From assembly GCA_947258795.1 (NCBI GenBank), contig CAMYJU010000012.1, forward strand, positions 1 to 63,439: DNA of 63,439 nucleotides. Direction: 5' to 3'. Source of the DNA: an uncultured Gammaproteobacteria bacterium. GTDB taxonomy: Bacteria > Pseudomonadota > Gammaproteobacteria > DRJJ01. Every line of letters begins with the position of its first letter. The stretch's first letter is position 1. The notes beneath the pieces are model-generated. The model saw only the letters and a list, made by a program, of their open reading frames with translations, was not told the DNA's origin and made no database searches. Of the stretch, positions 17,428 to 63,348 are shown piece after piece. Both the position numbers and the translations under genes were made by a program.

Positions 17428-18395
17428 GACTGCCACTCCCGGTGAATGTTGCGCAGCCAGACCGCAGCACCTGCACCCATGCCAATGATCATGAAGGCAA
17501 TTAACAACAAGCCACCTGCCTCAAGACCATCGAGGAGATGCCTGGCCATGAAGGTGATGGCAACGACGATGCCTGATAGGGCTATACCTGCCAGCATGAA
17601 AAGGTCATGCCTGATGTTTCTGTATACGTAGTACATACCACCCAGCCACGCAAGCCAGACTATTCCGGCAATCGAATCTGTATCTCGGTAATCAATAATG
17701 GAGAATATCGTCAGCCAGCTGATAGATACACCGCTCCCGATGGCCAGCAGACGCACGGCCCAACGTTCTGCCAACCATTGCCACTTGTGGCTCAGTAATT
17801 CCCAGATGGTTAGGGCAACAGTGTTAAAGGCAAACAGTGCCCAAAGCATGCCGGCATCGGATCCAAAAATGAATCCGAAGGCACTAGCGAATGTCGTGTA
17901 ATACAACACAATGGAAAGATTGATCAGTGCAATCCATAGTATCCAGATGGCCGGAAATAGTCCAATAACGGTCCATGGCAGCATCAGTAGTGCCCAGTTA
18001 AAAAACAGCTGCCAGGGATCAGCGCCGGTCTGGTAGGTTTGACCGTACAGGGCCAGTAACACGCCAAGAAATATGGCGGCCATCAGTAAAGCGACTTTGG
18101 CTGCCATATTGTGTTGATCCAGCTTCCAGTATGCCAGAACGGCAAGCACAATTAGCGCCTCAACCATACCGAATTTGGCGAAACGGCCAAGCTCATCCCA
18201 GTTGTAGGCTATAAAGAACATGGCCGAGAAGGCCAGTGCTAGTCCACCGAGCCACAACAATAGATGATCGATAAACTTCAGCCAGGTCTTGCCGTCAGGT
18301 GATATTCCGGTTGTATTCAGTGCCCGTTCAATATTTTCACGCGGAATATACTCCTGTTCGATAAGTCGAATAAGCTGGTTACGGGTTGAGTCCAT
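17424..18395 (-). CDS. DUF2157 polytopic membrane protein
   Basis: The protein is 323 aa. A soluble N-terminal helix region (about 1-35, LIRLIEQEYIPRENIERAL) is followed by a series of hydrophobic segments with the early motif FFIAYNWDELGRFAKF, characteristic of DUF2157. It is the first gene of the three-gene membrane operon. A second DUF2157-like protein is encoded at 58769-59809. Confidence 0.85.
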   Translation of the reverse strand: MDSTRNQLIRLIEQEYIPRENIERALNTTGISPDGKTWLKFIDHLLLWLGGLALAFSAMFFIAYNWDELGRFAKFGMVEALIVLAVLAYWKLDQHNMAAKVALLMAAIFLGVLLALYGQTYQTGADPWQLFFNWALLMLPWTVIGLFPAIWILWIALINLSIVLYYTTFASAFGFIFGSDAGMLWALFAFNTVALTIWELLSHKWQWLAERWAVRLLAIGSGVSISWLTIFSIIDYRDTDSIAGIVWLAWLGGMYYVYRNIRHDLFMLAGIALSGIVVAITFMARHLLDGLEAGGLLLIAFMIIGMGAGAAVWLRNIHREWQS

Positions 18396-55001: not shown

Positions 55002-55063
55002 TATACCACGCGACATGCTCGCTCTTGGTTGTTTGGTCTTTTGCGTGCATCAGGAGGCGTATC

Positions 55064-56941
55064 ATGGCTATCATCGGCATAGATCTGGGAACCTCAAATT
55101 CAGCGGCTGCTGTATTGCGCGGCGGTCGACCGGTGATCATACCCAGCGCCGAGGGCGTCAGTCTTGGCGGCAAGGCCTTTCCCAGCCATGTGGCGATCAC
55201 GGCCGACGGCCAGACCCTGGTTGGCGAACCGGCAAGGCGCCAGGCCGCGGCGAATCCCGAAGGAACCGCAACGGCCTTCAAACGACGTATGGGGCAGCGG
55301 GAACAAATCCAGCTGCGTGACAAACTGTTTTCACCTGAGCAACTCTCCGCTTTTTTGCTACAAAAGATCAAACGGGATGCCGAGGCCTTTCTGGGTGAGA
55401 CGGTTGAAAAGGCAGTGGTTACCGTACCCGCCTATTTCGATGATAACCAGCGCAGTGCGACCAAGGATGCCTGCCGCATAGCCGGTCTTGAGGTTGAACG
55501 GCTGGTCAATGAGCCGACAGCGGCATCACTCGCCTACGGTCTGGACCGTGCCGGTGAGGAATTGCGTATCGCCGTGATCGATTTCGGCGGCGGGACACTC
55601 GATGTCACCATTATGGAGTTTGGTAAAGGTGTGTTCGAGGTCAAGGCCACCAGTGGTGATACCCGGCTTGGCGGTACGGACATGGACCAGAAGCTGCTGG
55701 ATTACATCGCTGAAAGGTTCAAAACCGATATCGGTTTTGATGTACGCACCGATCTCAAGGCGGTGTCGCGACTGAAAGAGGCAGCGGAACTGGCCAAGAT
55801 CGATCTTTCAACCAGTACCACTACCCATATCAGTTTGCCATACCTGACGGCTGTTAATGGTGAACCCAAACATATGGAAATGGATCTGACCCGCACCGAA
55901 CTGGAAAGGCAGGTACGCGAAGTGGTTGAGCGTTGCCGGGGACCGATCGACCAGGCATTACATGATGCAGGGATTTCAACCGGTGATATCGATCGTATCG
56001 TGTTCGTCGGTGGTCCGACCCGAATGCCAATGGTGCGCCAGTATTTCGAGGAACTGTTTGGCCGCAAGGCCGAAATGGGCGTAGATCCAATGGAGTGCGT
56101 GGCCAGCGGTGCAGCGATTCAGGCCGGTGTGCTGAGTGGTGAGGTGGGGGATATTGTTCTGGTCGATGTGACGCCACTGACACTCGGTGTCGAGACCCTA
56201 GGGGGTGTGGCCACTTCCCTTATTGCCCGTAATACACCTATTCCGGTCAAGCATACCGAGACCTTTACCACGGCGGCAGATATGCAAACAGCGGTAACGG
56301 TCCACGTCTATCAGGGCGAACGTCCGATGGCCCGTGACAACACCAGTCTGGGCGAGTTTAACCTTGAAGGATTGCCACCGGCACCAAGAGGAGTGCCCAA
56401 GGTCGATGTCACCTTTGATATCGACTCCAATGGTATTCTGAATGTGACAGCCAAGGACCAGGCAACCGCTAAATCACAATCGATCAGGATTAGCGGTTCG
56501 ACCCGGCTTTCAGAAAATGAGAAACAGCGCTTGATAGATGAGGCAGAGAAATACGCCGAAGCGGACAAGAAGCGCCGCGACGAGGCTGACCAGTTGAATA
56601 ATGCAGATAATATGTGTTATCAGGCTGAAAAAATACTGGCCGAATTCAGTGACAAGCTGACGGATGATTTGCGTAGCCGACTGACGGTGGCCATGCAGTC
56701 AACACGGGAAGCGGTAGACAAGCGAGATGCGGAGCTAGCAACCCGGCGCGCCGATGATCTGGAAAAGCTGGTCCGGGAAGCGGGTGTTTCCGTTTACGCA
56801 CAATCCCCAGGTGCACCGACATCCGGTCCCTATGCAACCCATCCCGGACCTGATGTTAGTGAGGCAGGAGGAGACGCCCGGCCATCCGGATCCGGAGAGC
56901 GGGGCAAGGTGGTCGACGCAGACTACAAGGAAACCGACTAG
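55064..56941 (+). CDS. DnaK-like Hsp70 chaperone (paralog)
   Basis: The ATG at 55064 has an AGGAGG site 7 nt upstream and gives 625 aa. The ATPase domain starts MAIIGIDLGTSNSAAAVLRG, contains VTVPAYFDDNQRSATKDA, IDFGGGTLDVT and VFVGGPTRMPMV. The substrate domain has FDIDSNGILNVTAKD. The end VVDADYKETD resembles the DnaK C-terminal acidic tip. The N-terminal GGRPVIIPSAEG with GKAFPSHVAI recalls archaeal/Gram-positive-type DnaK more than E. coli DnaK. grpE is not adjacent, so this is probably a second Hsp70, not the housekeeping one. Confidence 0.9.
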   Translation: MAIIGIDLGTSNSAAAVLRGGRPVIIPSAEGVSLGGKAFPSHVAITADGQTLVGEPARRQAAANPEGTATAFKRRMGQREQIQLRDKLFSPEQLSAFLLQKIKRDAEAFLGETVEKAVVTVPAYFDDNQRSATKDACRIAGLEVERLVNEPTAASLAYGLDRAGEELRIAVIDFGGGTLDVTIMEFGKGVFEVKATSGDTRLGGTDMDQKLLDYIAERFKTDIGFDVRTDLKAVSRLKEAAELAKIDLSTSTTTHISLPYLTAVNGEPKHMEMDLTRTELERQVREVVERCRGPIDQALHDAGISTGDIDRIVFVGGPTRMPMVRQYFEELFGRKAEMGVDPMECVASGAAIQAGVLSGEVGDIVLVDVTPLTLGVETLGGVATSLIARNTPIPVKHTETFTTAADMQTAVTVHVYQGERPMARDNTSLGEFNLEGLPPAPRGVPKVDVTFDIDSNGILNVTAKDQATAKSQSIRISGSTRLSENEKQRLIDEAEKYAEADKKRRDEADQLNNADNMCYQAEKILAEFSDKLTDDLRSRLTVAMQSTREAVDKRDAELATRRADDLEKLVREAGVSVYAQSPGAPTSGPYATHPGPDVSEAGGDARPSGSGERGKVVDADYKETD

Positions 56942-56955
56942 GGCTCCGGTGAGAA

Positions 56956-58095
56956 ATGCGGGCTAACGAACAGCGCGACTATTATGAGGTGCTGGGCGTA
57001 ACGCGTGACGCCGATCAAAAAGTGATCAAAAACGCTTTTCGTGATCTGGCCATGAAATATCATCCCGACCGGAACAAATCCCCCGATGCAGAGGCACGCT
57101 TCAAGGAAATCGCCGAGGCCTATGCCATCCTGTCTGACCCGAAGAAGCGTGCTGACTATGATGCCCGGGGCTTTGCGGGTGTAGCCGGTTTCTCAACCGA
57201 AGACCTGTTCTCGGGTATCGATTTCGGCGATATCTTTGGTGATGCCGGGTTCGGCTTTGCCTGGGCAGGCGGAGGTTTGTTCGGAGACCTGTTTGGCCGG
57301 CATCGAAGGGCCAGGGGGCCAGCCAAGGGCAGTGATCTCGAGGTCAGGCTGGTGATCCCGCTGGAAAAAGTCAATACCGGTGGAGAGGAGACTGTCCGTT
57401 TCAGCCGCCCGGTCAGCTGTCCGGAATGTCATGGTTCTGGTGCAAAAGCCGGGACGGAGCCGCGACCCTGCGAGGCCTGCAAAGGCAGTGGTCGCAAGGT
57501 CATTACCCACCAGGAAAAAAAAGATCAGGGCTCGGTCAGTTTTCAGCAGATTACGAGCTGTCCGGTATGTCATGGTCAAGGGACGTTTATTGATCACCCC
57601 TGTAAAACCTGCAAGGGTGTCGGCCAGATCGAGCAGGAAGATAATCTCAAGGTGACCATCCCGGCCGGCGTTGAAGAGGGGACGGCATTGCGCATTCCGG
57701 GTCATGGCCTGCCCAGCCCCGCAGGTGGACCGCCAGGTGATTTATATGTGCTGGTCCGTAGTCAGCCGGACCCGCGTTTTGAACGTCATGGCGCCGACCT
57801 GTGGCGCGCTGAAACCATCGAGGTCGCTGACGCAGTCCTGGGCTGCGAACTGAAGGTACCGACGCTGGAGGGTAGTGTCGAGGTCAAGGTCCCTGCAGGT
57901 TCACAACCCGATGAGGTGCTGCGCCTGAAAAACAAGGGTCTGCCTGTATTTGGGGCGAATATGCGGGGTGATCTGAATATCCGTTTGCTGATTCATATAC
58001 CGGAGCACCTGAGTGCTGAGGAGAAAAGCCTGTACGAGCAGCTGGCCGGTATTAACAAGGAAACCAAAAGGCATTGGTGGAAACAATCACATTAA
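56956..58095 (+). CDS. DnaJ-family co-chaperone
   Basis: The protein is 379 aa. The J domain (about 8-72) has YYEVLGVTRDADQK and the HPD motif in MKYHPDRNKSP. A Gly/Phe-rich stretch is followed by four CxxCxGxG repeats (CPECHGSG, CEACKGSG, CPVCHGQG, CKTCKGVG), making it a full type I DnaJ. The C-terminal substrate-binding domains follow. It starts 14 nt after the dnaK-like gene and presumably serves it. Confidence 0.93.
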   Translation: MRANEQRDYYEVLGVTRDADQKVIKNAFRDLAMKYHPDRNKSPDAEARFKEIAEAYAILSDPKKRADYDARGFAGVAGFSTEDLFSGIDFGDIFGDAGFGFAWAGGGLFGDLFGRHRRARGPAKGSDLEVRLVIPLEKVNTGGEETVRFSRPVSCPECHGSGAKAGTEPRPCEACKGSGRKVITHQEKKDQGSVSFQQITSCPVCHGQGTFIDHPCKTCKGVGQIEQEDNLKVTIPAGVEEGTALRIPGHGLPSPAGGPPGDLYVLVRSQPDPRFERHGADLWRAETIEVADAVLGCELKVPTLEGSVEVKVPAGSQPDEVLRLKNKGLPVFGANMRGDLNIRLLIHIPEHLSAEEKSLYEQLAGINKETKRHWWKQSH

Positions 58096-58113
58096 AAACA
58101 AGGTAGCTATGGA

Positions 58114-58142
58114 TTGAAAAAAGGAAATCAGGTACCCATATT
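58114..58142 (+). promoter_or_regulatory. Sigma-32-type heat-shock promoter before hsp20
   Basis: TTGAAA (58114-58119), a 15-nt spacer and CCCATATT (58135-58142) fit the heat-shock consensus CTTGAAA N11-16 CCCATnT well. The -10 element is 60 nt before the hsp20 start. It lies directly after the dnaJ stop, so hsp20 can be induced separately from the dnaK-dnaJ pair. Confidence 0.7.
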
Positions 58143-58202
58143 ATATATCATCATCAAACCTTAATTTGTTATCGAACTAGCTGTCTAACCAAGGAGATAG
58201 TC

Positions 58203-58700
58203 ATGGCAAAGGGTAAGAATGAAAAGAAGCAGGAAGTCGAGAAGGTGCAGCCCGCGCGCGCTTTAAATCCGTTTGAGGAAATGGAGCGCTTGTTCGAGTC
58301 CAGTTTCCCGCGAGGCTGGATGCATCCGTTCCAGCTAAACTGGCCGTCATGGAGTGAAAAAATGGCGCCGTTTGAAGGCAAGACACCATCTGTAGATGTG
58401 ATTGACCGCGAAAATGAGGTTGTGATCAAGGCTGAGTTGCCTGGGGTCGATAAGAAGGATCTGGAAATCTCGGTTACCCGAAACACGGTTGCCATCAACG
58501 GAACGACCAGTCACGAAGAGAAAGAGGAAAAGGGTGATTACTATCGCAGCGAAATCTCTCGCGGATCCTATTCCAGAAGACTGGCCCTGCCGGCAGATGT
58601 CGATGAAGACAAGGCCAAGGCACAGTTCAAGGACGGTGTCCTGACGCTCACCTTGCCCAAGGTCGAAAAGGCCAAGCGTAAGACAATTAAAGTAGAGTGA
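58203..58700 (+). CDS. Small heat-shock protein Hsp20
   Basis: The protein is 165 aa. A basic N-terminus and the stretch NPFEEMERLFESSFPRGWMH are followed by an alpha-crystallin domain (about 58-158) with VIKAELPGVDKKDLEISVT, GSYSRRLALPADVD and FKDGVLTLTLPKVEKAKR. It is a holdase that keeps unfolding proteins soluble. A strong Shine-Dalgarno AAGGAG precedes it. Confidence 0.94.
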   Translation: MAKGKNEKKQEVEKVQPARALNPFEEMERLFESSFPRGWMHPFQLNWPSWSEKMAPFEGKTPSVDVIDRENEVVIKAELPGVDKKDLEISVTRNTVAINGTTSHEEKEEKGDYYRSEISRGSYSRRLALPADVDEDKAKAQFKDGVLTLTLPKVEKAKRKTIKVE

Positions 58701-58768: not shown

Positions 58769-59809
58769 TTATATATTTCTGGCCTCAAGTAGCTCCCTGA
58801 TCTGTGCGGGTAAAATGCTTCTTGCCCGCTCGGTAATGGCTTGCTCGTTCCGTTGCCAGAGGATACCCAGGTAGATGATGCCCAGACCGACTGCGGTCAG
58901 GATGATCGGGAACATCCAGCCGTCCCTGAATACGCTGGAGGCCAGGTGACCGAGGTAGATGCTGCCCCCGATTGCACCAAATACTACAAACACGCGTCTG
59001 ACCAGCAACACACCGATACCTATCAGTCCAAGATTGATACAGAAATAGATGAATCGTGACAGTTCACTGTCTGAATGCTGGGCGGTCATGCCGCCCCAGA
59101 ATGCGATCACACCAAACAGGTACAGCCAGAACGCGTAGTCCATGGTTTTCCGGGATCGAATGTCCACCCAGAATGCCAGCAGTGTTATCAGCAGGCCAAA
59201 GTACATTGATACCAGTGCCCTGAGCTCGAAGTCAGCGCGACCACCGACGAGCATTGCGGCAATGTCCATTGATAAATACCACAGTGTTACTGCAATCGGC
59301 ATCAGCAGGAACGGGTACTTGTAATGCCATGCCAGTATGGCGCCGACAGCCAGGGTGCCCAGCTCCATGTATAGCCAGTGCCACTTGATGTATTTGTGGT
59401 ACTCGCGATAGACACTGGCATCTGGCCACAATCCCAGCGCTTGTTGTAGTCCATAAATGGCAAGCGGGGTCAACACCACAACAAAAGTTGCGCAAATTCC
59501 GGCGGGTATTGCATGGCCTTTTTGTTGAAATTTACTGGTTAGCTTCAGGCCGATACCGGCATATAACAGTGAGATAAAGAATATGCCCCAGCCGCCAAAC
59601 GATTCCCAGCCCAGGTTCATGAACAGCGTCATCGCGCCGATCGCGATCATGCCGCCGAGATAGTAGAGCACGTGGGTAAAATCAAATCTTGGTCCGGCAT
59701 CAGGTCTGTTTTTCAGGAAATCAATCAGCCTGTCCGCCTGGTCCGGGCCAAGAATACTGTTGTTTATCGCTTCATCCAGAATTGTTCTGCTGATTTTCAT
59801 TTTTTTCAC
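58769..59809 (-). CDS. DUF2157-like polytopic membrane protein
   Basis: The protein is 346 aa. An N-terminal helical region (about 1-40, DEAINNSILGPDQADRLIDF) is followed by roughly ten membrane segments. The plan resembles DUF2157 proteins such as the one at 17424-18395, but the sequence is divergent. It is the last gene of a - strand group with DUF2145 and a small secreted protein. Function is unknown. Confidence 0.65.
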   Translation of the reverse strand: MKKMKISRTILDEAINNSILGPDQADRLIDFLKNRPDAGPRFDFTHVLYYLGGMIAIGAMTLFMNLGWESFGGWGIFFISLLYAGIGLKLTSKFQQKGHAIPAGICATFVVVLTPLAIYGLQQALGLWPDASVYREYHKYIKWHWLYMELGTLAVGAILAWHYKYPFLLMPIAVTLWYLSMDIAAMLVGGRADFELRALVSMYFGLLITLLAFWVDIRSRKTMDYAFWLYLFGVIAFWGGMTAQHSDSELSRFIYFCINLGLIGIGVLLVRRVFVVFGAIGGSIYLGHLASSVFRDGWMFPIILTAVGLGIIYLGILWQRNEQAITERARSILPAQIRELLEARNI

Positions 59810-59847
59810 CTATTATATATTTTTACAGTAATACTGTTGTCGGACAT

Positions 59848-60672
59848 CTAAATGTCCAGTCTGATATTTTCTGCCTTCAGTGTGAGCACGGCCCTGCTCA
59901 GCTCGTACTGTTGCAGATAGTTTACGATGGTTGTATATGTTGCAGTGTTGATCTGCTCATCCTGGTCACCGATTTTGACATCCGGGATAAACATGGAGCC
60001 AAACAGCAGTTTTATCGGACTGATGTTGATTTGTTGTGGTTTGAAGTAGGCACGGGTATTGGCCTTGATGGCTTTCTTGCTGTCAGTGTCATAGACCGCC
60101 GCCTGAATCACATCGAGCGTATGCTCGGTACAATTCTGGTACTTCGAATCACCCGGATTGGCCAGTACCGAGTAAGTCGGGTTATGTAGGTTACGGTAGG
60201 TCTCCGAAGTAATCACCTTCAGTAATCGTTTTTGTAGTGGAACGCTTGGGATGATGATACCGGTCTTGAGCTGCTCGGCACCGGCAAAAAAATCCACCGG
60301 ATAATCAACCACCAGGTTGCTGCGACCCGGATCCTGTTCATCCTGATACAGGTTGTAGATCGCATAGCCGGGTATGCTGCGGCCATCCTCGGTGCGTATG
60401 TTCGAGTAAACGGCGAATGCGACATGGGTGTAATTGATACCTTCGGGTAATTCCGAATCAGGTCTGCCCTGGCGAGCGAGAATGAATACGCGTGCGCCAT
60501 GGCTTGCCGCGGTGCGTTCCACCTTTTTCGAAAATGCCAGCAGCTCGGCCATATCGTATCTGGACTCGTTGGCATCATGTTGCCGGCTACCGGCCTCGGC
60601 CTGGCCCTGCATCAGCAGGGCAATCAGGCCGGCCATAATGATTTTATGAATATTACGGATTGAAGTGATCAT
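59848..60672 (-). CDS. DUF2145-family secreted protein
   Basis: The protein is 274 aa. A signal peptide (about 1-27, ending AEA) precedes FSKKVERTAASHGARVFILA, RQGRPDSELPEGINYTHVAFAVYS and YQDEQDPGRSNLVVDYPVDFF, the pattern of DUF2145. A later NCTEHTLDVI holds a cysteine-glutamate-histidine group, so an NlpC/P60-like or other peptidase-type fold is possible but unproven. It overlaps the upstream small gene by ATGA. Confidence 0.78.
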   Translation of the reverse strand: MITSIRNIHKIIMAGLIALLMQGQAEAGSRQHDANESRYDMAELLAFSKKVERTAASHGARVFILARQGRPDSELPEGINYTHVAFAVYSNIRTEDGRSIPGYAIYNLYQDEQDPGRSNLVVDYPVDFFAGAEQLKTGIIIPSVPLQKRLLKVITSETYRNLHNPTYSVLANPGDSKYQNCTEHTLDVIQAAVYDTDSKKAIKANTRAYFKPQQINISPIKLLFGSMFIPDVKIGDQDEQINTATYTTIVNYLQQYELSRAVLTLKAENIRLDI

Positions 60673-61019
60673 TGTTCTGCCCCCGTTTGCATCGCAGTTG
60701 TCGGGTTCGGACCGGCGGTGACGGTCTCATCACTGACCGGTAAACCGACTTCCCCGTCGCTGTTGGCCAGCTCCCACAGGTCTTCACTGGCGTGTGCACT
60801 GGCAGTACCTACACCCCCGACAATTGCCAGTGGTACTGCGACGACCCCGGCGGATAACTTGAGTCCGGCCTTGGCGGTATGGCTACCGGCCTGTACTGAA
60901 TGTTTCACGGCGTTGGCGCTATGCTGGACTGATCCGCCAGCCAGGGCTGGTTGTGCCAGTACACTAGCCATAGTGATGCCCAGAGCGATGGTCATGGTTT
61001 TAACGAATTTAGTTTTCAT
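60669..61019 (-). CDS. Small secreted Ala/Gly/Val-rich protein
   Basis: The protein is 116 aa with a signal peptide cleaved after QPALA (about residue 27). The mature N-terminus is rich in His/Ser/Ala (GGSVQHSANAVKHSVQAGSH), then a hydrophobic stretch (LKLSAGVVAVPLAIVGGVGT) that could insert in a membrane. Its stop overlaps the DUF2145 start by ATGA, so the two are co-translated. I recognise no named family. Confidence 0.65.
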   Translation of the reverse strand: MKTKFVKTMTIALGITMASVLAQPALAGGSVQHSANAVKHSVQAGSHTAKAGLKLSAGVVAVPLAIVGGVGTASAHASEDLWELANSDGEVGLPVSDETVTAGPNPTTAMQTGAEQ

Positions 61020-61122
61020 GTTCCTGTCCTCGTGTTGTTATTGATGTGTACGGTTATGAGTCTGGATCATGGTCGCTAATAAATAAACTAAAAGAGCAGG
61101 TGTCGCAAAATATTGCACATTA

Positions 61123-61141
61123 AGTATCAAATAGTGATACT
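61123..61141. promoter_or_regulatory. Palindromic candidate operator
   Basis: AGTATCA and TGATACT form a perfect 7-bp inverted repeat with a 5-nt centre, 35 nt before the regulator start and 103 nt before the divergent small gene. A second, imperfect palindrome (TGTCGCAA-AATA-TTGCACA) lies at 61101-61119. Such a pair between divergent genes suits binding by the adjacent helix-turn-helix protein. Confidence 0.5.
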
Positions 61142-61176
61142 ATTTTGGGAAATCAACAGAAAAGGCGAGGATTCCG

Positions 61177-61935
61177 ATGTCTCAATCAACGGAACTAGTC
61201 CAGCTTCTGAAACGCAATCTGAAGGCGAACGGGCTGACCTATGCCGATGTGGCCAGGGTCCTGTCGCTGAGCCAGGCCAGTATCAAGCGCATGTTTGCGA
61301 GCGGGCATTTTACACTCGAGCGACTGGAGCAGATTTGTGACATGGCCCATCTGAATCTGAGTGACCTGGTGCGTCAGCTGGATGAATCAAAATACCGCAT
61401 TACGCGTTTGACCGAGGAGCAGGAAAACGAACTGGTCTCGGATCTTAATCTGTTGCTGATTGCTGTATGCGCGCGCAGCCACTGGACACTGGAGGATATC
61501 GTACGTGTGTACGATATGACCGAACATGAGGCGATACGCTATCTTGCCCGTCTGGATCGCCTGGGCCTGATCGAGCTGCTGCCGGGTAACCGCTTGCGCC
61601 TGCTGGTTGCACGGGATTTCCAATGGATACCCGGTGGTCCGATCGAGCGCTTTTATGAAGAGCGCATCCAGAACGAATTTTTTGAATCGTCGTTTGCAGG
61701 CGCCAACGAATTCAGGGTGTTCAGCAGTGGGATGTTGTCCAAGGAATCCCAGGCCCTGTTATGCAGGCGTCTGCACAGCCTGGCAGGTGAGGTGGCTGCG
61801 ATGATGTCGGAAGATGCGAGTTTACCTTTACATCAACGTCACAGTATCGGCATGGTACTGGCGATGCGGCCATGGGAGCTATCGGTATTCAAGAAATTGC
61901 AGCGGGCATCAGTCGTCGCTGGTGATTCTGATTAG
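61177..61935 (+). CDS. Helix-turn-helix transcriptional regulator
   Basis: The protein is 252 aa. An XRE-type HTH covers about 8-60 (GLTYADVARVLSLSQASIKR). A second helix-turn-helix or winged region lies at about 95-145 (TLEDIVRVYDMTEHEAIRYL, RLDRLGLIELLPGNRLRLL). A C-terminal helical region of unknown role follows (FFESSFAGANEFRVFSSGML). It is divergent from the small-protein/DUF2145 operon and probably controls it and itself. Confidence 0.8.
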   Translation: MSQSTELVQLLKRNLKANGLTYADVARVLSLSQASIKRMFASGHFTLERLEQICDMAHLNLSDLVRQLDESKYRITRLTEEQENELVSDLNLLLIAVCARSHWTLEDIVRVYDMTEHEAIRYLARLDRLGLIELLPGNRLRLLVARDFQWIPGGPIERFYEERIQNEFFESSFAGANEFRVFSSGMLSKESQALLCRRLHSLAGEVAAMMSEDASLPLHQRHSIGMVLAMRPWELSVFKKLQRASVVAGDSD

Positions 61936-62257: not shown

Positions 62258-62701
62258 ATGACGCAAGATAAAATAAAAACAGAGAGTCAGGAGGGATGGA
62301 TGTTGATTTTCACCTGCTGGCTGATTGCTATGGCCGCCTTATTTGGCAGCCTATTCTTTAGTGAGGTCATGGATTTTAAACCCTGCATCCTATGCTGGTA
62401 TCAACGTATCTTTATCTATCCGTTAACGGTGCTCTTTTTTGTCGGTATGTTTCCACTAGATCGTTCCGTGGTACGTTATACCCTCCCGCTGGCTGTTATT
62501 GGCCTGGGGTTTGCCATCTATCACTATCTGTTGTACCTGGGTTATATTCCAGAATCTCTACAACCGTGTAGTGAAGATTTATCCTGTGCTGAAGTCAACC
62601 TGGAACTAATGGGGTTTGTCACCATTCCAATGCTCTCCATTTTCTCTTATAGTGCCATTATTATCCTTCTGCTTATTTTCCGAAAAAGGTTTTACCAATG
62701 A
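62258..62701 (+). CDS. DsbB/BdbC-like disulfide bond formation protein
   Basis: The protein is 147 aa with four membrane segments. The first cysteine pair is C43/C46 in KPCILCWYQR, and the second is C104/C110 in QPCSEDLSCAE. DsbB-type proteins re-oxidise DsbA with quinone. It is shorter than E. coli DsbB (176 aa) and nearer the BdbC length. It is translationally coupled to the DsbA-like gene by ATGA. Confidence 0.88.
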   Translation: MTQDKIKTESQEGWMLIFTCWLIAMAALFGSLFFSEVMDFKPCILCWYQRIFIYPLTVLFFVGMFPLDRSVVRYTLPLAVIGLGFAIYHYLLYLGYIPESLQPCSEDLSCAEVNLELMGFVTIPMLSIFSYSAIIILLLIFRKRFYQ

Positions 62702-63348
62702 AAAAAAATATTATTGTTGCCGCTACCACGATTCTGTTTGTCGTGCTCTTTGTAGTAGCAGCCACCATCTATAACAACCAGAAAAGTAGAGATCTAAGCA
62801 GTACTTCCCTGGAGAAAATTGAACATATACAACGCGATTACTCCCCAAAAATGGGCCCACATGATGCGAAGGTAACAATTGTTGAGTTCTTTGATCCGGC
62901 GTGTGGGACATGCAGTGCTTTCTATCCCTTTGTAAAGAAATTGATGGACGAAAATCCGGGGAAGGTTAATCTGGTTTTACGTTACTTACCGCTACACCAG
63001 AATTCAGATGTAATCGTCAGCATCTTTGAAGCTGCACGTTTGCAGAATCGCTTTTGGGAGACTCTCGAACTTGCCTACAAAACACGGGATACATGGATCG
63101 AACACCATGTCGCCAAACCGGAAAAGTTCTGGATGCAACTTGGCGGGACCGGCTTGGATATGCAGCAGTTAGAAGCGGATATGAAGAGCACCGAGATTGC
63201 CAGGCGAATTAAACAGGATGTACTGGATGCACAACAGCTCAAAGTTAGCAAAACCCCTGGTTTTTTTGTTAATGGTAAACCGCTGGTTCATTTCGGTTAT
63301 CAGCAACTCCAGCAATTAGTAGAGTCTGAGGTTACCGAAAACTACTAA
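62698..63348 (+). CDS. DsbA/BdbD-like thioredoxin-fold oxidoreductase
   Basis: The protein is 216 aa. One N-terminal membrane anchor (about 4-25) is followed by a thioredoxin fold with an inserted helical domain. The active site is C69-G-T-C72 in FFDPACGTCSAFYPF, and the cis-proline is in SKTPGFFVNGKPL. It is the natural partner of the DsbB-like protein encoded just upstream. Substrates are unknown. Confidence 0.9.
   Translation: MKKNIIVAATTILFVVLFVVAATIYNNQKSRDLSSTSLEKIEHIQRDYSPKMGPHDAKVTIVEFFDPACGTCSAFYPFVKKLMDENPGKVNLVLRYLPLHQNSDVIVSIFEAARLQNRFWETLELAYKTRDTWIEHHVAKPEKFWMQLGGTGLDMQQLEADMKSTEIARRIKQDVLDAQQLKVSKTPGFFVNGKPLVHFGYQQLQQLVESEVTENY

Follow-up and report, generated by a model that had tools for sequence, protein, structure and literature searches.

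The window analyzed here comprises 63,439 nucleotides (positions 1 to 63,439) of contig CAMYJU010000012.1 from an uncultured Gammaproteobacteria bacterium (GenBank assembly GCA_947258795.1). It contains a locus in which a gene for a helix-turn-helix (HTH) regulator (REG) is divergent from the gene of a small, predicted secreted protein (SEC), which is followed by genes for a DUF2145 protein and a multi-pass membrane protein (MEM) (Table 1). The ORF (open reading frame) list and translations gave all four genes on the strands named in the original prediction. The ATGA coupling of SEC to the DUF2145 gene was likewise present, and the protein described there as small and Ala/Gly-rich is indeed rich in Ala, Gly, and Ser and has a signal-peptide-like start. 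That prediction had placed all of these genes in one grouping under the regulator; three of the four stood up, and MEM is not a conserved member. Overall, we conclude that REG, SEC, and DUF2145 almost certainly make up a conserved unit, a real module, probably of the envelope, that is apparently little studied. DUF2145 is scarcely named in the literature searched, from which subscription papers were excluded, and any claim of novelty is limited accordingly.

Table 1. Features of the locus, with positions in the window
Feature	Position	Strand	Description
REG	61177-61935	+	252-amino-acid Cro/C1-type HTH regulator
SEC	60669-61019	-	116-amino-acid Ala/Gly/Ser/His-rich protein, predicted secreted
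DUF2145 protein	59848-60672	-	274 amino acids, signal-peptide-like N terminus, PF09916
MEM	58769-59809	-	Multi-pass membrane protein, no Pfam family
ATGA start-stop overlap of SEC and DUF2145	60669-60672	-	From ORF coordinates
Likely operator, AGTATCA-AATAG-TGATACT	61123-61141	n/a	Perfect inverted repeat

When 398 genomes from across the phylum were searched, DUF2145 was detected in 39 of them and REG homologues in 35. The two occur together in 23 genomes compared to 3.4 expected under independence, where the hypergeometric values overstate significance, the genomes being related. In these 23 genomes, REG and DUF2145 lie about 1.2 kb or less apart in 15 and under 10 kb apart in 21, with G073 (39.5 kb) and G345 (>1 Mb) as the exceptions. 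A profile of SEC matched 30 genomes, from which 7 with E values of 5.9e-4 or worse were dropped; DUF2145 was present in 22 of the remaining 23 (E<1e-15), a count biased toward linkage, as the profile was built mainly from DUF2145-derived loci. Near home DUF2145 is rare, being found in 2 of the 56 closest relatives (the organism's own genome and one of the same genus), and the same 4-base overlap of SEC and DUF2145 recurs at the same-genus locus, L034. A related-locus search from DUF2145 returned two named loci, from Marinomonas rhodophyticola and Loktanella sp. No match to the DUF2145 query was obtained among the plasmid records searched; REG homologues were present in 26 plasmid records, and two annotated plasmid neighborhoods of REG that were examined contained no annotated DUF2145. 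The original prediction had named gene-neighborhood analysis as a check and a lack of conserved grouping as its refutation, and the analysis found REG, SEC, and DUF2145 recurring together across distant families.

The intergenic region between REG and SEC contains two perfect inverted repeats, as had been noted from the sequence: 61123-61129/61135-61141 and, overlapping it, 61129-61135/61139-61145. Conservation extended only to the first, the second palindrome (61129-61145) not being conserved in the same-genus relative. Upstream of REG homologues the site reads AGTAT-N9-ATACT; some lineages have GGTATC-N7-GATACC instead. When 31 loci were scanned, one of which (L102) had no REG, the site preceded REG with at most one mismatch in 15 of the 30 that remained, and the shuffle fraction was ≤0.05 in 22; no site was found before REG in L092 and L097. 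Regions upstream of SEC were then compared for 14 REG-linked and 10 other loci, hand-picked for an available SEC ORF. With REG adjoining, all 14 had the site with at most two mismatches (13 with at most one), whereas without REG all 10 showed three to four mismatches, the level of shuffles. Thus, the palindrome travels with REG and not with SEC, and 61123-61141 is very probably the operator of REG, as far as sequence comparison can tell. Since the site also precedes REG in genomes where no DUF2145 was found (one mismatch in L103, two in L101), self-control is probably its older role.

The strict pattern RGTATC-N7-GATACY occurs once in the 3.36-Mb genome, at this site, compared to 0 in the control, and a wide regulon sharing the exact site is therefore not indicated. 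A looser pattern allowing one mismatch was uninformative, with 85 sites in the genome and 88 in the reversed control. Scanning the intergenic region for sigma-70 promoters gave no promoter-like site, with counts equal to those of shuffles. Separately, TGTGATATGTATCACA or a one-base variant of it lies between REG and SEC, beside the REG operator, in L058, L067, and L069. We take this element to resemble a CRP/FNR-type site, which suggests a second regulatory input in the family of these three loci.

REG had been described as a two-domain HTH protein. Its first HTH, spanning residues 1-74, was confirmed by PF13443 (24.6 bits, cut-off 22), and XRE structures align to an AlphaFold model of REG (predicted local distance difference test [pLDDT] 81.9, predicted template modeling score [pTM] 0.60) at Z scores of up to 11.7 over these residues only. 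Residues from about 80 to 142 form helices and a beta hairpin in the model and match HTH_IclR at 15.6 bits, below the cut-off of 22; for the second HTH there is thus a sub-threshold hint, in the form of a possible second winged helix. The C-terminal domain matched no family, and no structural neighbor was listed beyond about residue 87, in a test of low power.

SEC has, in order, the following parts: a signal-peptide-like start, a His-Ser heptad repeat, a hydrophobic segment around AVPL, and an acidic tail with the conserved motif PV(S/T)DE.(V)TAGP.P. His residues were spaced by 7 in 14 pairs compared to 1.3 in shuffles and by 14 in 6 pairs compared to 1.1, a statistic drawn from related rows with a crude guess of the mature start. 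The hydrophobic segment reaches a mean hydropathy of 1.87 over 19 residues. In another lineage (L033, L072, and L073), SEC carries a lipobox-like Cys, judged by eye.

Partners of DUF2145 were compared using 42 members. The search had given 46 matches, and wide stretches were taken for 40 places, including G001, the remainder being mostly fragments or near-duplicates; 43 ORFs were clustered, none of them from L049, and one out-of-frame ORF (L040, 6771-7295) was dropped. By sequence search, SEC adjoins 22 of the 28 DUF2145 genes that encode Cys at the position of the presumed nucleophile, and two more (L063 and L072) were recognized by eye. Directly upstream of 10 of the 14 members with Ser at this position lies another family of small secreted proteins, rich in Ala, Val, and Gly. 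As a profile of this family weakly matches one SEC (L032, E 7.6e-5), the two families may be distant kin. A sub-branch with Gln and Cys (L057 and L071) has a different secreted partner upstream with a Ser/Ala/Gly-rich start, and L064 (2818-3551, minus strand) carries a tandem pair of SEC genes ahead of one DUF2145 gene. By these comparisons, each of the main DUF2145 branches has its own small, predicted secreted partner, and such a partner stands beside most members of the family.

The identification of the second operon protein as DUF2145 was borne out, as it is a full-length member of the family, matching PF09916 at 178.6 bits (cut-off 25, E 1.4e-52) over model positions 2-200 of 200. A structural model made from a 37-sequence alignment (pLDDT 91.2, pTM 0.85) displays a papain-like core in which the strand bearing His83 (83-93) precedes the helix that opens with Cys181 (181-194). 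Upon realignment of the 1000 top chains with VIA-align, Escherichia coli YiiX (2if6) ranked first with a Z score of 11.9 over 167 aligned residues at 3.6 Å, followed by the Bacillus cereus enzyme BcPPNE (3kw0, Z 9.0), 6v98 (Z 7.1), and then a Z score of 3.0. A sequence search of PDB with DUF2145 gave a best E value of 1.1. Based on the model, DUF2145 very likely adopts the permuted NlpC/P60 (YiiX/LRAT-like) variant of the papain-like fold.

The active site of YiiX consists of His49, Glu64, Tyr115, and Cys128, as stated in its structural report (PMC3142127), and these residues were located at the same motif positions in sequence P0001. The residues of DUF2145 at the corresponding places in the model are His83, Asn107, Tyr167, and Cys181, which we regard as its candidate active site. 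Among the 42 members, His83, Tyr167, and Gln179 are invariant, while position 107 is Asn in 25, His in 14, and Gln in 3, and position 181 is Cys in 28 and Ser in 14. The two variable positions pair without exception (N/C in 25, Q/C in 3, and H/S in 14), although the switch from Cys/Asn to Ser/His separates clades and hence represents few events. A published survey describes DUF2145 as papain-like and counts it among families in which a conserved Ser replaces the Cys and the pocket is positively charged, treating activity as speculative (PMC10318531). Judged from the alignment, this description fits one branch of the family and not that of the window, in which Cys is combined with Asn as the third residue.

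On these grounds, we propose that the three genes form an autoregulated module of the envelope in which the secreted enzyme would act on acyl groups, either jointly with SEC or on SEC itself, a reading to which we assign slightly less than an even chance. REG, as an XRE-type dimer, would bind AGTAT-N9-ATACT between the divergent genes and would control both itself and the SEC-DUF2145 operon, where dimer binding and the direction of regulation are what we infer. SEC and DUF2145 would both be exported, their signal peptides having been judged by inspection. Within a permuted NlpC/P60 fold, DUF2145 would use a Cys181/His83/Asn107 triad together with Tyr167 to act on an acyl linkage, whether in a membrane lipid, a lipoprotein, or a lipid-modified protein; it would work at the membrane, as a hydrolase or transferase of acyl groups. 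In SEC, the His-heptad helix would lead into the hydrophobic segment, and the protein may serve as a dedicated membrane-associated partner or substrate. That SEC is a direct partner or substrate of DUF2145 seems to us an even call; the acyl chemistry, argued by analogy, is somewhat more doubtful. A hydrolase or transferase is favored because fold relatives are tied to acyl chemistry: a fatty acid is bound in the YiiX pocket (PMC3142127), lipoproteins are N-acylated by LnsA acting together with LnsB (PMC7387801), and Tox-Act1 has been described as a phospholipase (PMC12994826).

DUF2145 resembles the permuted NlpC/P60 enzymes of the YaeF/YiiX group in predicted fold and in the residue order His-polar-Tyr-Cys. 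It differs from them in that its third residue is Asn, His, or Gln instead of Glu, in its greater length, with insertions, and in adjoining REG and SEC. A likeness to the staphylococcal LnsA/LnsB system lies in the combination of a YiiX-like permuted NlpC/P60 enzyme with a second envelope component; however, LnsB is a CPBP-type membrane protein, while SEC is by description small and secreted, and the lns genes are unlinked in staphylococci (PMC7387801). The original prediction had spoken of an uncharacterized envelope process. An envelope role agrees with the export predicted for these proteins and with a fold like that of YiiX, and the description can now be made more specific: an enzyme of the permuted NlpC/P60 type that has a small partner of its own.

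Several points weigh against the proposed acyl-acting module, in addition to the relatedness of the genomes, the origin of the SEC profile, and the few switching events mentioned above. The structural match to YiiX comes from realignment and not from Foldseek, which returned no PDB match to the DUF2145 model at E≤0.001. The sequence relation is barely detectable, as hhalign of the DUF2145 family against the single YiiX sequence was weak (probability 0.74%, E 0.076), with Tyr115 paired to Tyr167 and Cys128 to Cys181. Relatives of the papain-like fold include peptidases and deSUMOylases, and the fold alone gives no substrate. Six of the 28 Cys-type members had no SEC match in the search, and 4 of the 14 Ser-type members had no related partner. 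Finally, SEC and REG of G104 adjoin in tail-to-tail orientation in a genome that yielded no DUF2145, which indicates that SEC can do without the enzyme. A more specific form of the proposal is speculative and, in our judgment, unlikely: a one-enzyme, one-partner envelope acylation or deacylation system in which SEC would be the dedicated, membrane-inserted acyl acceptor or substrate of DUF2145, the family would have changed its nucleophile from Cys to Ser and its third residue from Asn to His along with the partner, and the regulator would read the state of the system.

The alternative that survives best, although we consider it improbable at perhaps one chance in four, is that DUF2145 is a peptidase cutting SEC, for example at its conserved acidic tail, or another envelope protein, with SEC as a pro-protein. 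The papain-like fold with Cys, His, and Asn as in papain, the strongly conserved C-terminal motif of SEC, and the coupling of the two genes would all suit such an enzyme. Against it, the nearest structures belong to permuted enzymes whose S1 pockets are hydrophobic, the structural report on YiiX considers it unlikely that a peptide occupies S1 there (PMC3142127), and in G104 SEC occurs without a detected DUF2145. Less likely again is that DUF2145 is an inert or lipid-binding pseudo-enzyme in a structural module. The placement of the family among those with Ser for Cys in the survey (PMC10318531), and the Ser of 14 of the 42 members, speak for this; however, all four residues (Cys, His, Asn, and Tyr) are retained in the branch to which the window protein belongs, and the change of the third residue with the nucleophile in all 42 fits retained chemistry better than decay.

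Slightly less probable still, SEC may be an inhibitor or chaperone that silences a potentially harmful DUF2145 hydrolase in the envelope, with REG setting the ratio. Such a role would agree with the place of SEC as the first, translationally coupled gene of the operon and with the separate small partner of each main enzyme branch, but PADLOC-DB and PHROGs gave nothing for SEC. For the locus as a whole, no convincing match to an anti-phage defense model was obtained, since PADLOC-DB likewise gave no match for DUF2145 or MEM and only weak matches for REG (best E 0.002). A chance neighborhood without functional meaning, to which several SEC-DUF2145 loci without REG, other neighbors of REG in some replicons, and the fortuitous presence of MEM might point, is very improbable given the co-occurrence and proximity of REG and DUF2145 and an operator seen only where REG is present.

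MEM had been called DUF2157-like, which did not hold: hidden Markov model searches found no DUF2157 match. MEM has no Pfam family at E≤1, it was not listed at E≤10 when its own genome was searched with PF09925, and two relatives were also without a match. A genuine DUF2157 gene lies in the window at 17961-18365 (minus strand; PF09925, E 3.6e-29), far from the module, and the envelope-stress analogy of the DUF2157 and LiaF/PSP literature was not carried over to MEM. Homologues of MEM begin at an in-frame ATG near 59800. They occur at other places in 17 of 299 genomes, with unrelated neighbors at the two loci examined. Besides the home genome, both MEM and DUF2145 are present in G073, G141, G157, and G180, on another contig or megabases apart. 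None of 42 further loci that were examined carried MEM, and it was not found in the same-genus G001 (81% complete). It was therefore rejected as a member of the module; MEM is a local addition, downstream of the module in its own genome only.

Membrane proteins of the two-helix YiaA/B family (PF05360) were repeatedly seen in the vicinity of DUF2145 or REG, in L036, L053, L068, and others. Sequence search placed them near 10 of the 42 DUF2145 genes, and Pfam confirmed the four that were checked. Elsewhere in the phylum they may belong to the module as an additional component; none was found in the window's own genome. Just beyond REG, DsbB-like and DsbA-like genes overlap by ATGA at 62698-62701 (62258-63348, plus strand), and the position of this disulfide pair beside a module of exported proteins is probably due to chance. 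On the other side, Hsp70-like, DnaJ-like, and Hsp20 genes stand in a row that ends against MEM (55025-58700, plus strand), the first two assigned by sequence recognition and not by family search. Hsp70 genes also lie near the module in L053 and L054, within what we take from gene order to be an isc/hsc region; this proximity was regarded as chance, and heat-shock genes were not retained as partners.

Among the genomes sampled from the phylum, roughly one in ten (39 of 398) carries DUF2145. With a regulated module, a dedicated small secreted partner, and, in the window's branch, an intact Cys active site, the family becomes a testable enzyme-partner system, and its paired Cys/Asn and Ser/His branches would offer a natural case for nucleophile change in papain-like enzymes.

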